The notes below the pieces were generated by a model. It searched no databases. It was not told the DNA's origin and saw only the letters and a list, made by a program, of their open reading frames with translations. Positions 4,315 to 15,680 of a stretch of DNA of 18,767 nt are shown here, in pieces (the stretch's first letter is position 1; every line of letters starts with the position of its first letter). This DNA is from Clostridiaceae bacterium (lineage in GTDB: Bacteria; Bacillota; Clostridia; Clostridiales; Clostridiaceae): the NCBI GenBank assembly GCA_003510765.1, contig DOKV01000215.1, positions 1-18,767 on the forward strand, given 5' to 3'. The position numbers and the translations under genes are program-made.

Positions 4315-4896
4315 TCAAAATCCATCCTCTCCCAACAGCTCCACAAACCGCACGTAAGCATGCTCTGTTATGAACACTTCTCCATGACTTTTCTCCACCA
4401 AGAAGAGCTTTTGCAGCCCTTTCTCGCCCACAGGAAGGACCATCTTGCCTTGGGGCTTCAACTGTGCCACGAGAGCCTTTGGTATTCTCCTACCCGCTGC
4501 TGTGACCATGATCCGGTCATAGGGTCCTTTCTCTGGCCATCCATAGGTCCCATCGGCTACTTGTTATTGGATATTTGCCATGCCCAATTCTTCTAAGCGC
4601 TCTCTTGCTTCTTTTTGCAGCGCTGAAAGGCGCTCCACCGTATATACCTCTTTGGCCACCAAAGAGAGCAGTGCCGTTTGATACCCAGATCCAGTCCCAA
4701 TTTCCAGGACGCGATGCTCTTTGTCCACCTGAAGAAGCGCTGTCATTTTCAGTACCAAGCTAGGCTGAGAAATGGTTTGGCCCAGGCCGATGGGTAAAGG
4801 TTTGTCTAAGGTTGCTTCTCCCTTCCATGCCTTGTGCAGAAAGAAGGCACGGTCTAGGGACTTAAATTTTTCCATAAGAAACGTCTCCATCATCAT
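4315..4896 (-). pseudogene. pcm: Protein-L-isoaspartate O-methyltransferase, interrupted by an in-frame TAA
   Basis: The family repairs damaged aspartyl residues by SAM-dependent methylation. The N-terminal half, starting at the ATG at 4896 behind AAGGAGGGG, carries GQTISQPS (residues 39-46) and SAM motif I VLEIGTGSGYQ (63-73). It then hits a TAA at 4566-4564 (codon 111). The same frame continues without a shift through QVADGTYGWPEKGPYDRI, VTAAGRRIPKAL, LVLPVGEKGLQ-like sequence and VRFVELLGEDGF, all normal for Pcm. The full length of about 193 codons is slightly short but otherwise complete. One substitution, for example a tyrosine codon changed to TAA, would explain it. It is either a recent pseudogene or a sequencing error. 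It lies convergent to the cupin gene. Confidence 0.85.
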
Positions 4897-4940
4897 TTCC
4901 CCTCCTTGCCTACACATTACCACAAAGAGACGACAATGCA

Positions 4941-4984
4941 AGAAAGGGAGAGCCTCCGCTCATAGAGCGCTTCTCTCCCTTTTC
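4941..4984 (-). terminator. Terminator after the NifX-like gene
   Basis: AAAGGGAGAG (4943-4952) pairs perfectly with CTCTCCCTTT (4973-4982), with a nested CGCT/AGCG stem in the loop. It lies directly after the NifX-like stop on the minus strand and is followed there by CTTTCTTG, a modest T tract. Confidence 0.7.
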
Positions 4985-5843: not shown

Positions 5844-6617
5844 TTACTCAAAAATGATCTGATTTCGTTCATTATATAAGGTTCTATAACCAAAATAAAG
5901 GGCAGAAAACACCGATAGACACACCACGGTGGTGATGGCAATCATGATGGCGATTTGATAAAGTATGGCCGTCATGGGTAAGGTCCCCGACAAAATCTGT
6001 CCCGTCATCATGCCTGGTAAAGAGATGATGCCCATACCCAGCATGGAATTCATGGTAGGTAGTAGCGCTGTCTCTAAAGCATTGTTCACAAAGGGGAGTA
6101 AGATTTTTCTTGGGGCAACCCCCACATAAAGAAGCGACTCGATGCGATTTCTTTGCGCGGCGAGACTCTCTCTAAAAGTTTTCAAAGCAAGGGTTAAGCC
6201 TGTCATGGCATTCCCAAAAATCATACCGCTGAGGGGAATGGTGTATTGAGGATTAAAGAAATCCATACCTACCACTATTTGTACAAAGAAAAAGACGACT
6301 AGGGTCCCTGCGCAAGCTAAAGAAAGACCAATGGCCAGTTTAAACTTCTGATTAATCCCTTTGTTTTTCCCGAGTACCCGCAAGGTAGCAAAAGTGGTCA
6401 TGGCCAGAATGTAGGCCACGGTGAAAAGCGGATGGGGATTCCCCAAAATATAGGTCAACACAAGACCTGCCAGCACCAACTGAACCGTCATCCGGAAGCT
6501 GGCCAAGAGCAGTAGTTTTGTTTGGTTGATCTGGGCCTTCTTCATGATGAAGAGTACCACCAATAGGAGGAGATAAATGATGGCAAATTGCCCTATGGTC
6601 ATTTCAACAACCCCCAT
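5844..6617 (-). CDS. fetB: FetB-type ABC transporter permease (YbbM family)
   Basis: This 257-residue protein is a hydrophobic permease of the FetB/YbbM family, with about six to seven membrane segments. Recognisable family stretches include LLLASFRMTVQLVLAGLVL (about residues 36-54), GMIFGNAMTGLTLALKTF (about 151-168) and LPTMNSMLGMGIISLPGMM. In Escherichia coli FetAB is linked to iron export under oxidative stress; other members are only annotated by similarity. It follows the ATPase gene with one base between stop and start, so the pair is coupled. The ATG at 6617 is preceded by AAGGAGGGG. A later in-frame ATG at 6602 is less well placed. Confidence 0.92.
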   Translation of the reverse strand: MGVVEMTIGQFAIIYLLLLVVLFIMKKAQINQTKLLLLASFRMTVQLVLAGLVLTYILGNPHPLFTVAYILAMTTFATLRVLGKNKGINQKFKLAIGLSLACAGTLVVFFFVQIVVGMDFFNPQYTIPLSGMIFGNAMTGLTLALKTFRESLAAQRNRIESLLYVGVAPRKILLPFVNNALETALLPTMNSMLGMGIISLPGMMTGQILSGTLPMTAILYQIAIMIAITTVVCLSVFSALYFGYRTLYNERNQIIFE

Positions 6618-6618
6618 A

Positions 6619-7248
6619 CTAAGCCCCTCCTTTCTTTACATCGATGATGTGATCCGCAAAGGACGCCGACAGGGCATCGTCATGGCTTACAATGACCATG
6701 GTCATGCCCTTTTCCTTAGCAAAGACCTTAAGATCCGCTAATAAAGCTTTAGAGGTGGTAAGATCCAGCGCTGAGGTGGGTTCATCCATTAAAATCACCT
6801 CTGGCGCTAAGGAAATACAGATGGCGATGTATACCCTTTGTCGCTCACCTCCAGACATGCTGGTGGCTGAAGCATTCAAATCAAAGTCTAGATGACAAAG
6901 CTTGAGATACTTCTGTATGGTTTCATCACTGGGCGTGTCCATCTCTCGATATCGATAATACTCATGAAAATTTTCCCGAATACTCAGATCAAACAAATAC
7001 ACATTTTGCCCAATGAGAATCACCTCTTTTCTCAGGGTCACCGTATCCATCTCTGCAAGGTTTCTCCCTTTATAAAAGAGCGCTCCACTGGATGGACTGA
7101 CACTGGCATTGAGAAGCTTTAACAAAGTGCTTTTTCCTGCGCCACTGGGTCCTTTGATGAAGGTAATCCCTTCCTTGGGAATTTGCACATGGCCATAGGT
7201 CAAAATATCTTTAAATCCAGGATTTTGAATGTCAAATAAACTTTCCAT
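6619..7248 (-). CDS. fetA: FetA-type ABC transporter ATP-binding protein (YbbL family)
   Basis: This 209-residue ATPase has all ABC motifs: Walker A GPSGAGKST at residues 33-41, Q-loop Q81, signature SGGERQR at 132-138, Walker B VILMDEPTSALD at 151-162 and the H-loop histidine at 189 (VSHDD). Its short length and its pairing with the FetB-type permease support the YbbL/FetA assignment, which implies iron or related metal homeostasis. The start is backed by a GAGG site a few bases upstream. The 131 bases between this gene and the end of the glycosyltransferase gene should hold its promoter, but no strong match was found. Confidence 0.92.
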   Translation of the reverse strand: MESLFDIQNPGFKDILTYGHVQIPKEGITFIKGPSGAGKSTLLKLLNASVSPSSGALFYKGRNLAEMDTVTLRKEVILIGQNVYLFDLSIRENFHEYYRYREMDTPSDETIQKYLKLCHLDFDLNASATSMSGGERQRVYIAICISLAPEVILMDEPTSALDLTTSKALLADLKVFAKEKGMTMVIVSHDDALSASFADHIIDVKKGGA

Positions 7249-7379: not shown

Positions 7380-8786
7380 CTAGGTGTAGTTTTGTTTCTT
7401 TCGCTGAATTTCACCCCAAACATTCTTTTTCTTTTTGTACCCAATGAAGGCTGTGGCCCGGACAAAGGATAACATATAGCGATACAATGCTGTTTCAAGG
7501 GTGACCATCAGTAGCGCTTTCAAGATATCTGATCCATGAAGTTTGATACCTTGGCTATACACCCTTTGTAAAAAGGCCGTCATACTTAATAAAATGTTAT
7601 AGCCTGTATAAATGAGCAGTAGCCGAATCATGAAGGGTACAAATAACAAGTTCAGCTGCCAAGCAAGGATAATATTGAGAATGCCCAGGACCTCAATATA
7701 GGGAGACCACAGTTCAAAAAATAAATAATAATAGTATGAAAAGCTTCTGGAGAACCCAGCTTTAAAGGGATTGGCCAACTCTTTATACTTACTTAAGGAT
7801 TGATAAAGACCTAAATACCATCTTTTTCGTTGCTTCATCACATCTTTTAAGGAAGAAGGAGATTGACTCCAACAAATCGCTTTGGGTTCATAGGCAATTC
7901 TACACTGCCTTTGATTATTGATACAGTAGGCATTGATCTTCATAACCAGTTCCATGTCTTCTCCCAAAGTATCTATACTGTATCCCCCCACCGCCATCAA
8001 AACATCCTTCCGAAACAGCCCAAAAGCCCCAGAAATAATGAGATTCGCATTGAACTGGTCTAGTAAGATTCTTGAAGCGAGAAAAGAGCGATCATACTCC
8101 ACCACCTGCATCCCCACAATGGGGTTCCAAGGTAGTCGATAGTCTATGACTTTACCTTTTTCCATATGGACTGTTTGGGAAATTCTGATCATCCCTCCCA
8201 CGGCAATGATCCGTTCATCTCGCATCACGGGTTGAATGATCCTCTCTAGAGAATCTCCCTGCAGTAAGGAATCTGCATCAATGGCTACCACATAGGGATA
8301 CCTGGAAATATTCACCCCTGCATTTAGGGCATCTCCTTTTCCACCATTCTCCTTGATTACCAAGGTTATCTTAATATTTTTCATTTGCCCTTCATAAACT
8401 TCTTTCACCTTGGCGGTGGGAATCCGTCCATGAATGGGCTTTCTGGTTCGTATCAGATGAAAGTACTCAATCAAAACCTTTGATGTGGCATCCTTTGAGC
8501 CATCATCCACAATGACCAACTCGTAGAGTTTATACTGTAAATTCAATAGACTTCGTATGCTGTCCACGATGGTCACTTCTTCATTGTACGCAGGAACCAA
8601 TACGGAAATGGGAATGTAGTATTCATGCTTTAATTCATTATTATATCGAATCATTCGATCTTGGGTGTGGAGCTGAATGGCCCCATAAAAAACTGTAATG
8701 AATAGATATGTTGTATAGATGATCATGTACACAACAAAAAAGAGACTGATCTTTTCCACAACATTTTCTAAGAAGATTTCCATCAT
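7380..8786 (-). CDS. Membrane GT2 glycosyltransferase (processive polysaccharide synthase-like)
   Basis: This 468-residue protein is a family 2 glycosyltransferase of the type that makes poly-N-acetylglucosamine, hyaluronan or cellulose-like polymers. A membrane segment lies at about residues 13-35. The catalytic domain follows, with VPAYNEE at 64-70, DDGS at 94-97, DAD at 170-172, GED at 275-277 and the processive-enzyme motif QRKRW at 319-323. Further membrane segments are at about 365-400 and 425-450. Which sugar is used cannot be decided. It is the last gene of a seven-gene operon. Its ATG overlaps the stop of the HEAT gene by 4 bases (ATGA), a sign of translational coupling. No clear terminator was found after it. 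Confidence 0.92.
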   Translation of the reverse strand: MMEIFLENVVEKISLFFVVYMIIYTTYLFITVFYGAIQLHTQDRMIRYNNELKHEYYIPISVLVPAYNEEVTIVDSIRSLLNLQYKLYELVIVDDGSKDATSKVLIEYFHLIRTRKPIHGRIPTAKVKEVYEGQMKNIKITLVIKENGGKGDALNAGVNISRYPYVVAIDADSLLQGDSLERIIQPVMRDERIIAVGGMIRISQTVHMEKGKVIDYRLPWNPIVGMQVVEYDRSFLASRILLDQFNANLIISGAFGLFRKDVLMAVGGYSIDTLGEDMELVMKINAYCINNQRQCRIAYEPKAICWSQSPSSLKDVMKQRKRWYLGLYQSLSKYKELANPFKAGFSRSFSYYYYLFFELWSPYIEVLGILNIILAWQLNLLFVPFMIRLLLIYTGYNILLSMTAFLQRVYSQGIKLHGSDILKALLMVTLETALYRYMLSFVRATAFIGYKKKKNVWGEIQRKKQNYT

Positions 8787-9862
8787 TTCCTTTGACTCCT
8801 CTCAGTGATTCTATACTCCAGGATTTCTTTTGCATAGACATCTTCCCCAAGCAAAATATCCTTCATATCTATCAAACTTCTTTTTTGCTCAATGAGCGCT
8901 TCACTGGCATTAAAACGCACGTACCAGTTGGGGTCTCCCAAGCTTTCTTTCAACACTTCTAGAGTCTCTTTGGACTCATATTTGCCTAGGACTCTAGCGG
9001 CTACCACGCGTATTTCATACCCCTTTTTAGGATCCAGGACATATTGCCGAAGGACTTCTTCTGCGGGTTCATAAAGGTTTTTCATAAAATAACGCATGGC
9101 AGAAAGCCTCAATTCAATATTTTCACGCTCATCGGTCATGACTTCATACATCTCCCTCTTATAAGAGGAAGATTTTTGCGTGATATAGAGGAGCACGCCT
9201 TGCCTTAGGGTAGGCAGAAAACGCCTCCATTGTTGCCACAATATCTTGGTCAGCTCTTCATGATCCCCTGGATATAGGGTCAAACTATCCCCCACAAGCT
9301 TTGCATGGTGACTCCAGTTCTTGTCTGTAAACTCCGTAAGCACACGCAATACCCACGACATCTGCCCAGCGGAGATCACCGCTTTTAAGACGCTATCTCG
9401 CACATAAATACTTCTTTGGTCCAAATAGCCTAAAAAAATGTAGAGAAACTGATCGTCTGTCCAAGCACCTTTACTAAATCGGCTATAGAACAGCGCAAAG
9501 TAGGCTTTGTCCATGGTCCCCTTGTCTCCATATTCCTTGGCCAAGTACAGGATGACTTTTTGGAGGTCGCAAAGAATCCTCAGGAGCACCTCCTCTTCTT
9601 GAAAACTTTCTAGGGCTTTCTCAAAGTACTTCAATTCCTCTGTATCCACCAACTCTTTTTGTAGCTTCTTGATGAAGTCTCGATGGACACCTTTCCCCAA
9701 ATTCACTTGATAGATTTGATTGGCCATGGCCACTTGCCATCCCATGACGGCTCTTTTTTCCTTATAGTTTCGATAGGCACTATAGAGGATGTAGCTCAGT
9801 GTGTACAAAAGAATCATCACGCAGAGGAACAGATAGATGTATAAAATGGTATTCACAATCAT
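8783..9862 (-). CDS. Membrane-anchored HEAT-repeat protein
   Basis: This 359-residue protein has one N-terminal membrane segment at about residues 3-30, followed by basic residues (YRNYKEKR). By the positive-inside rule the rest lies in the cytoplasm. The remainder is helical, with HEAT/PBS-lyase-like repeats clearest at about 280-330 (IRVVAARVLGKYES, then DPNWYVRFNASEAL). HEAT arrays are protein-binding scaffolds. The overlap with the GT2 gene suggests it binds or organises the synthase. I chose the ATG at 9862 because GGAGGGATTAAG precedes it and it lies one base after the previous stop. An in-frame ATG at 9919 would add 19 residues inside the upstream gene. Confidence 0.85.
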   Translation of the reverse strand: MIVNTILYIYLFLCVMILLYTLSYILYSAYRNYKEKRAVMGWQVAMANQIYQVNLGKGVHRDFIKKLQKELVDTEELKYFEKALESFQEEEVLLRILCDLQKVILYLAKEYGDKGTMDKAYFALFYSRFSKGAWTDDQFLYIFLGYLDQRSIYVRDSVLKAVISAGQMSWVLRVLTEFTDKNWSHHAKLVGDSLTLYPGDHEELTKILWQQWRRFLPTLRQGVLLYITQKSSSYKREMYEVMTDERENIELRLSAMRYFMKNLYEPAEEVLRQYVLDPKKGYEIRVVAARVLGKYESKETLEVLKESLGDPNWYVRFNASEALIEQKRSLIDMKDILLGEDVYAKEILEYRITERSQRK

Positions 9863-9863
9863 C

Positions 9864-11957
9864 TTAATCCCTCCAGTATGCTTGTAAGATTTTGTATGCT
9901 TTTTTATGTCTCTCTTCATAAGAGCCTACCCTTGGTAGGGAGGGAAAGTTCTTTTCATGGAGCTGAATCATTTCCTCCCCTCCTCCGACACCAATATGAT
10001 AGGACCTTATTTGCCTAGGCTCTACACCATAGTGCTCATAGTAGTCCTCATGAATCGATCTCTCTACAGGGTTATAGAAGTTTAACAAATAGTAAGGGAT
10101 TTTTATTTCCACAAAATCCTCTCCAAAGGAGTAGTCCGTTAAGGAGCTGTAGTTCGGGTCTAGAGGATTTCCCACCCCATGAAATAAGTTGCCTGTTTCA
10201 TAGGTTTCATAGTTCCAAAGCACTGCATTTTCTTCCAGGTCAAGATCATGAGGGATTCTTCGTCTAATCATCTCTGGTACCACAAATTTTCTACTATTTT
10301 TTGCTGGAAACAATACATAGGGATTCACCCCTCTTAAACGCTCTAAAAAATTAGGCCGAAGGCTATGATACCTTTCGTGGACCCTAAACTCTCCTTTTTC
10401 TTCTCCATGAATGTACAGGAGAAAATCCACAGGTCTTGAGAAGGTCGCCTTAGGCTCTATGGACGAGGTAGCGCCCTGGCCCATAAGAAAATCCAATCCA
10501 ATGATCAGCTCTTGCTCCTTGATGTCAGGATGCCGAACCAATATGTACATGTGATTATGGTCAAAGGTTGATTGTAAGATCCACCCATTGGCTTCCACTT
10601 GTTCCACACCTGCCCAGTCCTCTTCCTTTCCATCCACCCTCATGACCCCCTCATCACGATGGACATCAAAGGCCATGAGCCCGTAATGCTGGGTTTCCGT
10701 CTGTGCATCTTGCCATAGATAAGCTGCTTCATCATCCGTGGCATAGGCTGTGGTCCAATTTCTTAGATACCACTGATCTTGCCAACTGGCCAGTATACCA
10801 TGGGCAATATTGGCCGATTTAAGCTCTTCCAGTATAGAGACCATCTTCTCTCCTTGGTCTTGTTCTTCGATGCGCTCCATGGCAGAGGATGATGCACGTA
10901 CACTGGCCACATTCACATGCACCATCACCAGAGGCACTTCATGATGTTGCTCCAGAAGGGTCAGGTAATTCGTCACTTCCTCTCTGGAAAGCAGCGCTTG
11001 ATTTTGTCCATTGGGGGCCAGATTCTCCAAAAGATCCACTGTGGTCTCCGTGTATTGATATGCCGCAAAGTGCCCAGCTAGGAAGGCTTCCGTATCATAG
11101 ATGTTTTCCATGTCTATTCTATTGAATTTACCTGTGAGCGCAGCATAGCTTTCCTCATACTCAAAAGGATCCATGAGACTAGTATTGAAAAAACTCACTG
11201 GCCTTTGGGCCCCATACTTTCTTGTTTCATAGTGCACCATAGTATCTAACACTTCTGCCAGGACGGTTTCAAAGGCATTGGCTCCATTGGTATACAGAAA
11301 CTCTCCTTGATAATCCATCCCATCCTTATATAAAAGATTCGTGTAGGCCACAAAATCCGGATGCCAATCATCTCCCACAATAAAGCCCAAGACATAAGGA
11401 GACAGATCTTTAAAATAAAACCCGTTACCACTGGTCTTCTCATTGAGAAGAATTCTTCTACCGTGCACCACATCCACAGCTTTTTTCCCTTCCTTCAAGA
11501 GTGCTTCTCGAAACTCTGGAGAAAATGCATCTCGTTGCTTTTCCACTGCATCTTCCTCCACTCGAATACCCTGGAGAAGATAGAGTGGCTCCTCATGGTC
11601 TTCATTAAATCGATGCAAGGCATTATAGAAATCGTCATTGTACACCATATTGATTTTAACGGTGTTGGCCCCCACTGCTTGAATTTCTTGAAACCAGCGA
11701 TAATAGGTTTCTTCATCAATTTGAAAGTCCATGGGACTTTCAAAGGCTCTGGCTTGAGCCACATGAATACCTCTAATCTCCAGGGGTTCATAGCCTTCAT
11801 CCCCCAAAAAATAATACTCTTTCTCCTTTGTTTTAAAAGAAACCACCACGGGCTGTCCGTCACCATTGTCTAGATAGAGCCCTTCCATGAAATATCCATA
11901 GATTCCTGCAAAAAAGAGGATGGCCACAAGAAACAACCCTGTAAAAAACTTTTTCAA
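9864..11957 (-). CDS. Secreted or anchored glycoside hydrolase-like (TIM-barrel) protein with CBM9/DOMON-like C-terminus
   Basis: This 697-residue protein has a hydrophobic signal or anchor at residues 4-22, followed by a domain resembling family 2/5-type TIM-barrel hydrolases. The opening IRGIHVAQARAFESPM and WFQEIQAVGANTVKINMVY (about 88-106) look like the first strands of such a barrel, and ILASWQDQWYLRNWTTAY (about 388-405) like a late strand. Candidate acids such as D196, D197 and D394 are present, but I cannot assign a catalytic pair. From about residue 437, VDGKEEDWAGV begins a beta-rich domain resembling CBM9 or DOMON carbohydrate-binding modules. It likely acts on the polymer made by the GT2 enzyme outside the membrane, but no precise family or activity is recognised. 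Confidence 0.75.
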   Translation of the reverse strand: MKKFFTGLFLVAILFFAGIYGYFMEGLYLDNGDGQPVVVSFKTKEKEYYFLGDEGYEPLEIRGIHVAQARAFESPMDFQIDEETYYRWFQEIQAVGANTVKINMVYNDDFYNALHRFNEDHEEPLYLLQGIRVEEDAVEKQRDAFSPEFREALLKEGKKAVDVVHGRRILLNEKTSGNGFYFKDLSPYVLGFIVGDDWHPDFVAYTNLLYKDGMDYQGEFLYTNGANAFETVLAEVLDTMVHYETRKYGAQRPVSFFNTSLMDPFEYEESYAALTGKFNRIDMENIYDTEAFLAGHFAAYQYTETTVDLLENLAPNGQNQALLSREEVTNYLTLLEQHHEVPLVMVHVNVASVRASSSAMERIEEQDQGEKMVSILEELKSANIAHGILASWQDQWYLRNWTTAYATDDEAAYLWQDAQTETQHYGLMAFDVHRDEGVMRVDGKEEDWAGVEQVEANGWILQSTFDHNHMYILVRHPDIKEQELIIGLDFLMGQGATSSIEPKATFSRPVDFLLYIHGEEKGEFRVHERYHSLRPNFLERLRGVNPYVLFPAKNSRKFVVPEMIRRRIPHDLDLEENAVLWNYETYETGNLFHGVGNPLDPNYSSLTDYSFGEDFVEIKIPYYLLNFYNPVERSIHEDYYEHYGVEPRQIRSYHIGVGGGEEMIQLHEKNFPSLPRVGSYEERHKKAYKILQAYWRD

Positions 11958-11969
11958 TTGACCTTCCTC

Positions 11970-13424
11970 CTATCTCGTGATTTCAAAACTATTTCTAGAT
12001 GGATGACTATATTGCCGTAGCGTATGCATATGTTCGTCTAGCCATCTGCCACGCATCCTTAAAAACTCCGCCATGGTTTCCACAGCTTCTTCATAGCTCT
12101 CCACATTTCTCGTAAGCCTTAATAAATAGCCCTCTGGATAATAATTGGACATGGAAAAAACGCTGCCCCACACTGCATAGTTTCTCGTTACCGCAGTACC
12201 TAAATAGGCTTCTGTTTCTGTGATGTACGCCATTAATCTCTCTTCGCTTAAAATGCTTCTTCGTAAGACGCTATATCTCCTCAGAAGCCCTTCTACAAAT
12301 TGAGGATCTTTTAACAGGGTATCAAAGAACACTGCCCCCGTTAAAGAAAATCCCGCTACAGAATGACTGATTTCCTGATAATTGTCCAAGGCATTGTTGA
12401 AATCCCATACCACAGGGGTTAAGAGTCCCCTGGTATCTTTATACCAAAAAGTGGAGTAGAACCCTGCATCCACATTACGGAATAATTCATTCAGGATAAA
12501 GTAGTCTTGAAAAGCTTGTACATTTAGGGTCTTTGAAAACCCTTCATAACGCTCTTCTAAGGGTCTCAAATATAGGCTCTTGGCAATTTTTGTCAAATCT
12601 TTTTCCACATAGTCTTTCCGGTCTAGCGTAAATTGTCCCTGACCTGGATATACCAAATCAATATCTCGACCTTCCGTCCGATACGTCTTTGTGAGAAACT
12701 CTGTGAGCTTCGAATTTGGATCCATCTTTGGCGCTCGATCCATTTCCACAAGGTAACTTGTGAGAGCACTATTTCTTAGGGGGGTGTCAATCTCCACCCT
12801 ACCTTCCCCCTTGCTGATGGTTTCCATGAGTACGTAAACCCCTTGATACTTACCATCTTGAAAGAGCTCCACGAACCTTACCTCCGGTGCATAGGGCATC
12901 ATCTCTCCAGCAAGATTCATGGCCATGTAGTTTCTAATAAGGGTTCGGTCCAAATAGGGTCCGTGCAATGCCCACTCATCATGAGCCTCCATACCCAGTA
13001 GCGCCTTTCTTACTTCTTCTCTTTCCTTGTTGACAATGCGTATGGCATAAGACTTTTTACTGAAATACCTTGAAGAATTCCCTCTATATCGAACCCGTGC
13101 TATAAAAGTCTTATTTTCATCTAAATGATCATAGACCACAGACATATCCGCTAGGATATCCGTAGTACCATCCTCAGCCAGTTCATAGACCAGGTCTTGC
13201 CCTGGAATCGGTGTCCCTGGTATTCTCTGGTCATTTGTGTCGATGGAAAATACGGGCAAATGGGTTTGAAAACCCGCTGTACGGTATCTGAATTCCTTTT
13301 CACTGGGATAGCTTAGGTGCTGATGAAATCGCTCTTCAAACCTACCTTCATCCACATAATAAAGTGCAATGGATGCACTCACTATGAGGAGTACCAAAGC
13401 CACCATGATTATTTTGTACTTCAT
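11970..13424 (-). CDS. CotH-family kinase with N-terminal membrane anchor
   Basis: This 484-residue protein matches the CotH kinase family, known from Bacillus spore coat phosphorylation. A membrane anchor lies at about residues 5-23, so the kinase domain is predicted outside the membrane. Family motifs are RYRGNSS (112-118) with K123/K124, DRTLIRNYMAMNL (159-171), LMETIS (199-204), ILNELFRNVD (310-319) and VVWDFNNALDN (338-348). D319 and D341 fit the catalytic aspartates known in CotH, although the last motif has N343 where many members have another acid. It sits 6 bases after the DUF4956 gene. Linkage to a polysaccharide operon rather than to spore coat genes points to a role in modifying an envelope protein or polymer. 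The substrate is unknown. Confidence 0.9.
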   Translation of the reverse strand: MKYKIIMVALVLLIVSASIALYYVDEGRFEERFHQHLSYPSEKEFRYRTAGFQTHLPVFSIDTNDQRIPGTPIPGQDLVYELAEDGTTDILADMSVVYDHLDENKTFIARVRYRGNSSRYFSKKSYAIRIVNKEREEVRKALLGMEAHDEWALHGPYLDRTLIRNYMAMNLAGEMMPYAPEVRFVELFQDGKYQGVYVLMETISKGEGRVEIDTPLRNSALTSYLVEMDRAPKMDPNSKLTEFLTKTYRTEGRDIDLVYPGQGQFTLDRKDYVEKDLTKIAKSLYLRPLEERYEGFSKTLNVQAFQDYFILNELFRNVDAGFYSTFWYKDTRGLLTPVVWDFNNALDNYQEISHSVAGFSLTGAVFFDTLLKDPQFVEGLLRRYSVLRRSILSEERLMAYITETEAYLGTAVTRNYAVWGSVFSMSNYYPEGYLLRLTRNVESYEEAVETMAEFLRMRGRWLDEHMHTLRQYSHPSRNSFEITR

Positions 13425-13430
13425 GGCGCA

Positions 13431-14105
13431 TCAACTAATTTCATCGCTTTGGGTGATGACATTCACATACTCAATGTCCCCAAGCTCATATATTTTTTCT
13501 GTGATGGTTTTGTTGTTTTTACTGGACCGATTGTATTGACTTCTACTTAGTTCAAAAATAAATTCTATGGAATCATTGGTGGAGTTTTTCACTCTTAGAA
13601 AGGCCTTTTTGTCAAAATACTTAAACACTGCCCCTTCAATGACAATTTCCTTCAATCGGCTCCCACGAATAATGATGAGCATACGATTTTCATTCTTCAC
13701 CCGCCCCAAAAGAAGAAGCACCAAAAATACCACCACACTGCCAAAACTTGCCACCAAATAGTCCCCAGCGCCTGTGCTGATTCCTACAATAATGGCCCAA
13801 AAAATATACGTGGTATCTCGAGAATCTTTGATGGCTGTTCTAAAACGCACAATGGACAAGGCGCCCACCATACCCAGTGACAAAGCAATATTGTTGCCGA
13901 TGACCGTCATCACTGTGGAGGTTAAAATGGTCAAGGAAATCAACGATACATTGAACTTTTTACTATAGGCTGTGCCCACATGGGTAAACCAATAAGACAC
14001 ATAAATGGCCAAGGATAAGGCCGTTGCGGCTAAAATATTGATGACAATATCCCGGGGCGTTAAGGAACCTGATTGTTCTAGTAACTGAAATAATACATCT
14101 CTCAT
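13431..14105 (-). CDS. DUF4956 membrane protein
   Basis: This 224-residue protein has four or more membrane segments at about residues 20-40, 52-70, 99-114 and 118-134, followed by a soluble C-terminal domain (140-224). The family signature is VGALSIVRFRTAIKDSRDT at about 80-98, with RFRT at 87-90. Its function is not established. It regularly accompanies VTC-domain and CotH genes. By analogy with the membrane part of the yeast VTC complex it could be the membrane channel or anchor for the cytoplasmic VTC-like polymerase; that is inference. The gene begins 17 bases after the VTC gene and ends 6 bases before CotH. Confidence 0.88.
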   Translation of the reverse strand: MRDVLFQLLEQSGSLTPRDIVINILAATALSLAIYVSYWFTHVGTAYSKKFNVSLISLTILTSTVMTVIGNNIALSLGMVGALSIVRFRTAIKDSRDTTYIFWAIIVGISTGAGDYLVASFGSVVVFLVLLLLGRVKNENRMLIIIRGSRLKEIVIEGAVFKYFDKKAFLRVKNSTNDSIEFIFELSRSQYNRSSKNNKTITEKIYELGDIEYVNVITQSDEIS

Positions 14106-14122
14106 AATATCCCTCTCTCTAC

Positions 14123-14818
14123 TTAAAATAAATAATGTTTGCTGATTACCCTACTCATACTGTACTTTCCAATGGAAAGCTCTTGCTTCTCCAGTCCATC
14201 TAGCCAGTCTTTCAAATAACTCAAGAGAAACCCATTGTATTTTACTTCTAACACCACCAGTCCAGGGTCTAGAAGATAGTTTTCATTAAGATTAGGCGAA
14301 AAAATATCAAAATTACTCTCTGTCCCTCTGATGTGATGGTCAAAGGTAATTCGGATTTTGTTTTCCTTGGCCACAAAAGCCTTTCTTTCATAAGTGACCA
14401 CAGACTTTGGTTTGTAGCCATGCATCATCATGACTCCATAACACTCTTCTGCAAAGACCGATGATTTCCCTAAAAGACCTCCATAGGCGCCACTGATCAA
14501 CTCTTTGCTTTCTGCTAAGGACAACTTCAAAGAGCTCTTTTTTTGCTGCTCTCCTTGCTTCTTCTTCATCTCCAGTAGCCCAAAATCAGGCCGGTCCATA
14601 TATGTGCGAAGCCTTATTTTTCTCCTTACTTCTAAGCCATCCTCCTTTTCATGAAAATCTCGATCCTCTAGCGAATCAAAGTACAAGGATCGTAGGGTAT
14701 ACCCATCTCCCTTGCTATGTTCATCCACCGTCATCACCTGTTCTAGAAAGTGACGAAACTTTCGGTATTGGACTTCTTCTAAAAGGTACTTCTTTTCCAC
14801 TCTATATACTTCATTCAT
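14123..14818 (-). CDS. VTC-domain protein (polyphosphate polymerase-like)
   Basis: This 231-residue soluble protein is a single VTC domain, the CYTH-like tunnel fold that polymerises ATP gamma-phosphate into polyphosphate in yeast Vtc4. The key residues of that tunnel can be seen: RVEKKY at 6-11, RSLYFD at 43-48, a basic RRKIRLRTY strand at 65-73, LEMKKK at 82-87, TYERKAF at 142-148, RITFD at 156-160 and LEVKYNGFL at 190-198. It appears complete for a free-standing bacterial member. Its start overlaps the lipoprotein stop by 8 bases, and the next gene, DUF4956, is 17 bases away. The activity is predicted from the family, not proven here. Confidence 0.9.
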   Translation of the reverse strand: MNEVYRVEKKYLLEEVQYRKFRHFLEQVMTVDEHSKGDGYTLRSLYFDSLEDRDFHEKEDGLEVRRKIRLRTYMDRPDFGLLEMKKKQGEQQKKSSLKLSLAESKELISGAYGGLLGKSSVFAEECYGVMMMHGYKPKSVVTYERKAFVAKENKIRITFDHHIRGTESNFDIFSPNLNENYLLDPGLVVLEVKYNGFLLSYLKDWLDGLEKQELSIGKYSMSRVISKHYLF

Positions 14819-15680
14819 AACCTAAAAGCTCCTTCACTGCGTTGTAATCATGGTAAACCAAATGGATCCTTTGCTCTGCCAATGCCTCTTGAATGGCCGT
14901 GAAATTCTCTTCCACCGCAGAAAAACCTAAGGCATAATAGGTGTTCCTTTCCGTGAGGCCATGGGTTCCTGGAGGCTTCATTTCATAGATGGTCATCATG
15001 TCTTTCTTGGCCTCTTTCGCATAGGTTGCTTCTAAAGACAGATGTTCCAACTCTTTTCCAACGTAATAGTTCATCACCGCCACTTGATCTGATGCTTCCA
15101 CAATGATCTCATATAACGCTTCTTCCAACATCCAATGATCATAGTAGTACGGAATACATACGATAAATTCCAGTTCTTTACTTTTTGCCACCTCATAGGC
15201 TTTTTTGAGCCCACTGACAAAGGCCGCCATAATCTCTTCTTGATCCTCTTTAAATTCCGGCAAAAGATAGGGTTCCACATCCATGACGATGCCTTTAAAT
15301 CCATGGTCTTTAGGCACATGTTCGTTGATCCAAGCCATCCGCTCTATTCGTCGAATCATGCTTTCTCCTTCTTCATCTAGGCCCCAGCTAGGGTCTCCTG
15401 TGAGTGCATACACCGAGAGGTTTTCCTTTGCTGCCCTTTCTAAAAACATTTGCACGTCAGCAACGTCTGCTGACGACGAAATGGTCTGAAAGACCGTATT
15501 CAGCTCCAAGTGGTCCATGACCTTTATAAAGGTATCTAAATCTTCCAGGTGCATAGAAGATGTCCAAGAGAAGATGCCTCTTATACCCTCTTCAGCTGGC
15601 ATAGGCTCCTCTTCTATTGTACAACCAACCATGAATAGAAGCATCATCATCAGAAAACTTCCTAAAATTCTCTTGCCCAT
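14811..15680 (-). CDS. Lipoprotein with GH18-like domain
   Basis: This 289-residue protein begins with a lipoprotein signal ending at Cys20 (LLFMVGC, followed by an acidic linker). The rest resembles a small TIM barrel of the GH18 kind: GIFSWTSSMHLEDLDTFI near the start, VMDVEP at 132-137 with D134 and E136 in the position of the GH18 D-x-E pair, and VMNYY at 202-206 like the M-x-Y-D strand. The spacing is that of short non-chitinase relatives, so the activity is uncertain. It may cut or bind a GlcNAc-type polymer. I chose the ATG at 15680 because AGGAG precedes it; an upstream ATG at 15719 would spoil the signal peptide. It is the first gene of the seven-gene operon. Confidence 0.78.
   Translation of the reverse strand: MGKRILGSFLMMMLLFMVGCTIEEEPMPAEEGIRGIFSWTSSMHLEDLDTFIKVMDHLELNTVFQTISSSADVADVQMFLERAAKENLSVYALTGDPSWGLDEEGESMIRRIERMAWINEHVPKDHGFKGIVMDVEPYLLPEFKEDQEEIMAAFVSGLKKAYEVAKSKELEFIVCIPYYYDHWMLEEALYEIIVEASDQVAVMNYYVGKELEHLSLEATYAKEAKKDMMTIYEMKPPGTHGLTERNTYYALGFSAVEENFTAIQEALAEQRIHLVYHDYNAVKELLGYE

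Follow-up and report, generated by a model that had tools for sequence, protein, structure and literature searches.

The 18,767-nucleotide contig DOKV01000215.1 of a Clostridiaceae bacterium (assembly GCA_003510765.1; this whole stretch is the window of the text below) carries on its minus strand a compact set of seven genes that is probably a synthase-dependent exopolysaccharide operon, one that builds and processes an exopolysaccharide. We favor this reading because six of the genes keep their order across relatives, because the GT2-type synthase retains its catalytic and QxxRW motifs, and because polysaccharide deacetylase and GGDEF/EAL genes recur at the related loci. It is likewise supported by the GH-A-type fold of the protein we call GH697, after its 697 amino acids (aa), and by the glycosidase matches of a small lipoprotein. 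Further support comes from published accounts of other Gram-positive bacteria, in which the trio of VTC, DUF4956 and CotH genes lies beside pelDEADAFG and, in Streptococcus intermedius, DUF4956 or CotH deletions alter Pel amount and aggregation, and from the separation of the operon-linked VTC sequences from the Pel-linked ones.

A recount of the open reading frames (ORFs) of the window recovered seven minus-strand ORFs in 7380-15680, at the coordinates given in a preliminary description of this DNA. The intergenic gaps, recomputed from the lipoprotein gene to GT2, also agree with it (-8, 17, 6, 12, 1 and -4 bases). In the order of the minus strand the genes are:

14811..15680, minus strand: TIM-barrel lipoprotein, 289 aa from the ATG at 15680 (longest ORF 302 aa); candidate extracellular glycosidase; lineage-specific seventh gene
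14123..14818, minus strand: VTC-domain protein, 231 aa, polyphosphate-polymerase-like (PF09359, 1.1e-37)
13431..14105, minus strand: DUF4956 membrane protein, 224 aa (PF16316, 3.3e-14)
11970..13424, minus strand: CotH-family protein, 484 aa (PF08757, 2.9e-60)
9864..11957, minus strand: GH697, modelled as an N-terminal transmembrane (TM) segment, a clan GH-A-like TIM barrel (GH157-like) and a C-terminal beta-rich domain
8783..9862, minus strand: HEAT-repeat protein, 359 aa from the ATG at 9862 (longest ORF 378 aa; PF13646 HEAT_2, 1.6e-7)
7380..8786, minus strand: GT2 processive-type synthase, PgaC/IcaA-like, 468 aa (PF00535, 2.1e-25; PF13641, 8.5e-23)

Pfam thus assigns five of the seven proteins (VTC, DUF4956, CotH, HEAT_2 and GT2). 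GH697 drew no match in a Pfam search up to an E-value of 10, and the 302-aa lipoprotein ORF gave three sub-threshold matches only (E 0.1-0.2). By eye, a purine-rich stretch resembling a ribosome-binding site precedes six of the seven genes, CotH being the one that has none. A promoter scan returned 18 sites against 18.4 expected.

A conserved six-gene unit

Of 7998 candidates scored in a homology search with GH697, 88 proteins reached E <= 0.001. A profile built from 15 of the GH697 relatives was then run against a one-genome-per-species collection and found 412 relatives, of which the best 80 were kept, giving 81 loci with the window. All co-occurrence counts for these loci are conditional on this GH697 anchor and on the choice of the best 80 of the 412. 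Clostridia, Bacilli and Coriobacteriia are among the groups that appear in the record titles of the relatives. With profiles made from the window genes, VTC was detected at 66 of the 81 loci, DUF4956 at 68, CotH at 74, GH697 at 81, HEAT at 79, GT2 at 77 and the lipoprotein at 15; many of the absences fall at contig ends. For the order of the genes we considered the 52 loci, window included, that have 4 kb or more of sequence before GH697 and 3 kb or more after it. VTC, DUF4956, CotH, GH697, HEAT and GT2 lie in the same order on one strand, intervening genes being allowed, at 51 of these 52, so that the conservation of order exceeds chance by far. Scattered or only pairwise-linked genes, which would speak against a single unit, were looked for in the relatives, and this was not the situation for six of the seven genes in the GH697-anchored set.

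The lipoprotein gene lies at its canonical place, directly before VTC, in only 13 of the 57 loci that could be scored for it; two diverged lipoprotein matches away from the operon (L067 and L073) were scored as absent. Since it is so restricted, the locus that had been described as one seven-gene unit is better termed 6 + 1: the unit stands for the six ordered genes and does not extend to the lipoprotein.

The synthase and its HEAT-repeat partner

The GT2 protein contains DDG (94-96), DAD (170-172), GED (275-277) and QRKRW (319-323), and the residues of these motifs, position 321 excepted, are invariant in an alignment of 11 rows. The D, DxD, ED and QxxRW motifs are the set found in processive GT2 enzymes. 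Hydropathy places hydrophobic segments at both ends of the protein. Its best NCBIfam match is TIGR03937, the PgaC/IcaA synthase of poly-N-acetylglucosamine (PNAG), at 139.6 bits against an equivalog cut-off of 422.3; given this score below the cut-off, sequence comparison marks the enzyme as PgaC-like and does not identify it as a member of that family. The HEAT protein has one N-terminal hydrophobic helix by hydropathy, followed, by eye, by basic residues, which suggests that the HEAT part is cytosolic and lies beside the synthase. The GT2 motifs and the adjoining HEAT gene thus support the earlier proposal of a processive-type synthase with a HEAT partner.

Two barrel proteins and two subtypes of the operon

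Structure models of GH697 and of the lipoprotein are both TIM barrels, and both proteins have N-terminal hydrophobic segments and are predicted to lie outside the cell. The GH697 model has a clan GH-A-type fold with GH157 as its nearest family. At the end of strand 7, in the column that a weak profile match (E 0.003) links to E224 of GH157, which we take to be the nucleophile, the window has His347, and 54 of the 81 loci have Glu. For the putative acid/base position, in a column picked from the end of strand 4 of the model and not from the GH157 alignment, the window has Asp197 and 67 of the 81 loci have Glu. Catalysis has probably been lost in the GH697 of the window. The lipoprotein shows by eye a lipobox-like ...LFMVGC, and its barrel drew several glycosidase matches in the structure comparison. 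The preliminary description had both barrel proteins trimming the polymer outside. The presence of two TIM-barrel proteins predicted to lie outside is borne out, but given the His at the nucleophile position of GH697, trimming in this organism probably fits the small lipoprotein only.

The accessory genes divide along the same line. Among ten neighbouring proteins submitted to a Pfam scan, the recurring kinds were PF01522 polysaccharide deacetylases, a part of which also carry SLH or fn3 domains, and proteins with EAL or GGDEF/EAL that match a solute-binding type weakly. Matches to the PF01522 deacetylase profile adjoin or fall inside the unit at 16 of the 81 loci, and one protein (P0050) is a clean GH697-deacetylase fusion. 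A GGDEF/EAL gene, a possible link to c-di-GMP, lies directly downstream of GT2 on the same strand at 40 of the 81 loci, or 39 of the 69 with at least 4 kb of downstream sequence. Neither the deacetylase nor the downstream GGDEF/EAL gene was found at any of the 13 loci of the lipoprotein type, the window among them, though the downstream sequence of one (L048) is too short to score. There are accordingly two subtypes: a barrel with the nucleophile, in part accompanied by a deacetylase and a GGDEF/EAL gene, and a barrel without the nucleophile, accompanied by the lipoprotein, to which the window belongs. Among cultured carriers, Proteiniclasticum ruminis (L002) is of the lipoprotein subtype and Anaerotignum sp. 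MB30-C6 (L025) of the other. The division into subtypes suggests that the role of hydrolase has shifted from one protein to another. A further gene of about 168 aa, with a coiled coil and DivIVA-like by eye, is present at 21 of the 81 loci, in most cases directly following GT2 and usually ahead of the GGDEF/EAL gene; the one member scanned with Pfam gave sub-threshold matches only.

VTC, DUF4956 and CotH as a portable module

The VTC domain of the window scores 130.3 bits (cut-off 23), and no TM segment was found in the protein. A VTC profile reaches the polymerase domain of yeast Vtc4 (PDB 3g3q) at E 8e-5; the single window sequence, used without a profile, matched no VTC structure. K10, R69, R71, K85, R145 and R156 are invariant in 15 rows and align with Lys or Arg of Vtc4, which we take to be its tunnel/binding residues. 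Unlike in the yeast VTC complex, the bacterial VTC domain stands alone, and its membrane part, if it has one, is presumably DUF4956 in place of a TM domain like that of yeast. DUF4956 has four hydrophobic segments and a soluble C-terminus by hydropathy. The CotH domain scores 204.9 bits (cut-off 23.8), and the protein has an N-terminal TM anchor by hydropathy and is predicted to lie outside. Its W340-D341 (within WDFN) and D347 are invariant in 12 rows, with the alignment to the solved CotH 5jd9 spanning the first half only. By these residues VTC looks intact, and so, tentatively, does CotH.

To place the trio in a wider context we used 148 genomes from the class, presumably Clostridia, of the Anaerotignum genome that carries locus L025. 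DUF4956 is present in 73 of them, at 91 places, and searches for the other families covered these 73 genomes only. At 84 of the 91 places a VTC gene stands on the same strand no more than 1.5 kb away, and at 38 CotH is found within 2.5 kb. Eight places are in a GH697 operon and three near PelG; 27 have VTC and CotH with neither the GH697 operon nor PelG nearby, and 47 have VTC without CotH within 2.5 kb, contig ends being included in both figures. One of the 27 (G115) has PelG on another contig and may represent a Pel locus divided between contigs. We examined 40 regions, taking 20 from the 27, 18 from the 47 and two from the three Pel places. In 13 of them a nearby BLAST cluster, the two scanned members of which are Cthe_2159 carbohydrate-binding proteins, was found, mostly adjoining VTC-DUF4956. 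The stable core is thus VTC-DUF4956, with CotH among the two or more partners that join it, and VTC-DUF4956(-CotH) is a portable module that occurs also beside Pel genes and elsewhere. The phosphate-type trio noted in the preliminary description is indeed present, but it is not specific to this operon, as VTC-DUF4956 occurs in many other settings. In a midpoint-rooted VTC tree a branch (SH-aLRT 97) separates the 66 operon-linked rows from the two Pel-linked ones; from this grouping the coupling of the trio to GT2/HEAT probably arose once and was then retained.

Two observations from the examined regions may be recorded here. At two (L096 and L104) a gene that by eye resembles a DHH-type inorganic pyrophosphatase comes before VTC-DUF4956-CotH, an arrangement that would be in keeping with phosphate-polymer chemistry. 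Across the regions (L089-L128) one BLAST cluster recurs in 25 of the 40, often as two adjoining genes of about 230 and about 450 aa, which match a response regulator and a histidine kinase in size.

Comparison with known systems

A like gene set is in print as NELoc-2 of Clostridium perfringens. Table 4 of that report (PMC2879425) gives a sigma-factor gene followed by a 348-aa hypothetical protein, a VTC protein of 232 aa, a 226-aa protein and a resolvase, and continues with VTC (230 aa), a 222-aa protein, CotH (497), a hypothetical protein (685), HEAT (377) and a glycosyltransferase (466). For the proteins of 226 and 222 aa its annotation is tubulin/FtsZ, located at the cytoplasmic membrane; by place and size we take them as DUF4956. 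If so, NELoc-2 and the window, compared by name, order and size only, have the same gene kinds in the same order with similar sizes. NELoc-2 differs from the window in the doubling of VTC and the following gene around the resolvase and in the sigma-factor gene, and the table has no evident counterpart of the lipoprotein. Two later studies found NELoc-2 in strains, one of them adding deacetylase and anti-sigma genes (PMC5964661, PMC11677781); the available portions of the three papers report no product and no test of function. We found no functional study of this gene set in the openly licensed literature, subscription papers lying mostly outside the search. The earlier statement that no characterised system with the full set was known holds for function, but a set with these gene kinds in this order has been published.

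The Gram-positive Pel loci pelDEADAFG of clostridia and streptococci adjoin CotH, polyphosphate-polymerase and DUF4956 genes together with a DUF4832 protein (PMC7112168), the latter an active glycosidase in Streptococcus intermedius (PMC12345266). As described in these sources, such loci share with the window the trio and a TIM-barrel glycosidase beside an exopolysaccharide synthase; they differ in having PelF/PelG in place of GT2/HEAT, and no GH697 is described for them. Of the 17 window proteins searched against Pfam, a subset of its ORFs, none matched the PelG or PelF families. The S. intermedius paper, of 2025, reports that in its authors' analyses the three-gene arrangement was found only at the Pel locus (PMC12345266); beyond whatever that search covered, the window and the non-Pel trio loci are counter-examples. 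CotH, HEAT and polyphosphate do not occur in the main text of a systematic survey of exopolysaccharide operons (PMC7112194).

Proposed function and alternatives

The analysis establishes the gene order, its conservation, the predicted folds and the residues. In the mechanism that we infer, which takes in the polymer, the topology, the hydrolysis and every phosphate step, GT2, held by the membrane-anchored HEAT partner, would polymerise a sugar chain inside the cell, plausibly of N-acetylhexosamine, and extrude it. Outside, the membrane-anchored GH157-like barrel with its C-terminal beta-rich domain would receive or guide the chain; as the barrel lacks the nucleophile residue in this lineage, the lipoprotein would be the likely hydrolase. 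Cytosolic VTC and membrane-embedded DUF4956 may form an auxiliary phosphate module, and the kinase-like CotH, outside, may act on the polymer or its surface proteins. A more specific scheme has VTC making polyphosphate from ATP inside, DUF4956 exporting it, and CotH, for which no ATP is evident on the outer side, using it as the donor to phosphorylate the extruded polysaccharide or its surface proteins. We regard this scheme as quite improbable; if true, it would couple phosphorylation outside the cell to a sugar synthase, in a cassette shared with Pel.

Several results weigh against the exopolysaccharide reading as a whole or against its phosphate part. The co-occurrence counts are conditional on their anchor, neither a deacetylase nor a GGDEF/EAL gene was found in the window, and the top Foldseek rows of the lipoprotein are sugar epimerases and not glycosidases. 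The score of GT2 below the PNAG cut-off bears on the identity of the polymer. One locus, L070, the exception among the 52, has GH697-HEAT-GT2 and a GGDEF/EAL gene without VTC, DUF4956 and CotH, so that the trio can be absent. VTC-DUF4956 often occurs without CotH or near Cthe_2159, and the phosphate need therefore not act on the polymer. According to the S. intermedius report, Pel production does not require the accessory genes, and no effect of deleting the polyphosphate-polymerase gene is reported (PMC12345266).

In another reading, which we consider rather unlikely, VTC, DUF4956 and CotH regulate the synthase, by phosphate signalling or protein phosphorylation, and leave the product unmodified. 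In S. intermedius deletion of DUF4956 is reported to raise Pel and deletion of CotH to lower it, both with weaker aggregation that is clearest in one medium, Pel still being formed (PMC12345266), and regulation by CotH has been proposed (PMC7112168); against this, CotH is predicted from hydropathy to lie outside, away from the catalytic side of the synthase. An unlikely alternative on present evidence is a variant of the Pga/Ica system, with GT2 as PgaC/IcaA, HEAT standing in for PgaD, GH697 plus a deacetylase or the lipoprotein for PgaB, and the trio as a passenger. Pga/Ica synthesis does share with the window a PgaC/IcaA-type GT2 and, as described, an extracytoplasmic deacetylase and/or glycosidase (PMC7112194). 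The window enzyme, however, scores far under the TIGR03937 cut-off, GH697 is GH157-like, and the window yielded no deacetylase. To our knowledge a HEAT partner, a GH157-like protein and the phosphate trio are not part of Pga/Ica. Finally, the main product might be a surface protein layer bearing polyphosphate or phosphate, for which the sugar synthase makes only the anchor. The genome sample contains many VTC-DUF4956 pairs, often beside secreted-type proteins, CotH or Cthe_2159, as such a layer would have it, but here the trio is tied to GT2, HEAT and GH697 in a fixed order and the published Pel linkage points to a polysaccharide (PMC7112168), making this explanation very doubtful.

While the kind of system is already known, the breadth of its conservation, its composition, the two subtypes, the probable loss of the nucleophile and of catalysis in GH697, and the trio loci without Pel genes nearby are new. 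Gram-positive anaerobes have exopolysaccharide systems that, in our judgement, have been mapped only in small part. The operon recurs nearly gene for gene at loci assigned by title to Clostridia, Bacilli and Coriobacteriia, among them cultured species not known to us as pathogens, which makes it directly testable. Since the trio is attached to two or more different synthases and occurs in further settings, its possible roles are narrowed.

Neighbouring genes and host

The row nearest to the window on both trees is that of Proteiniclasticum ruminis (L002). The UPF0014/ABC transporter pair that follows GT2 in the window (5844-7248) has genes of about the same size after GT2 in that species. Given both, the host of the window is probably near the genus Proteiniclasticum. 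On the plus strand, 34-1813 holds a two-gene pair, a 336-aa winged-helix-like and a nucleotidyltransferase-like protein, AbiE-like by eye and with no Pfam match. On the minus strand, 4564-4941 encodes a protein-isoaspartate methyltransferase ORF of 125 aa that spans only positions 18-126 of the 210-position profile and is probably cut short.

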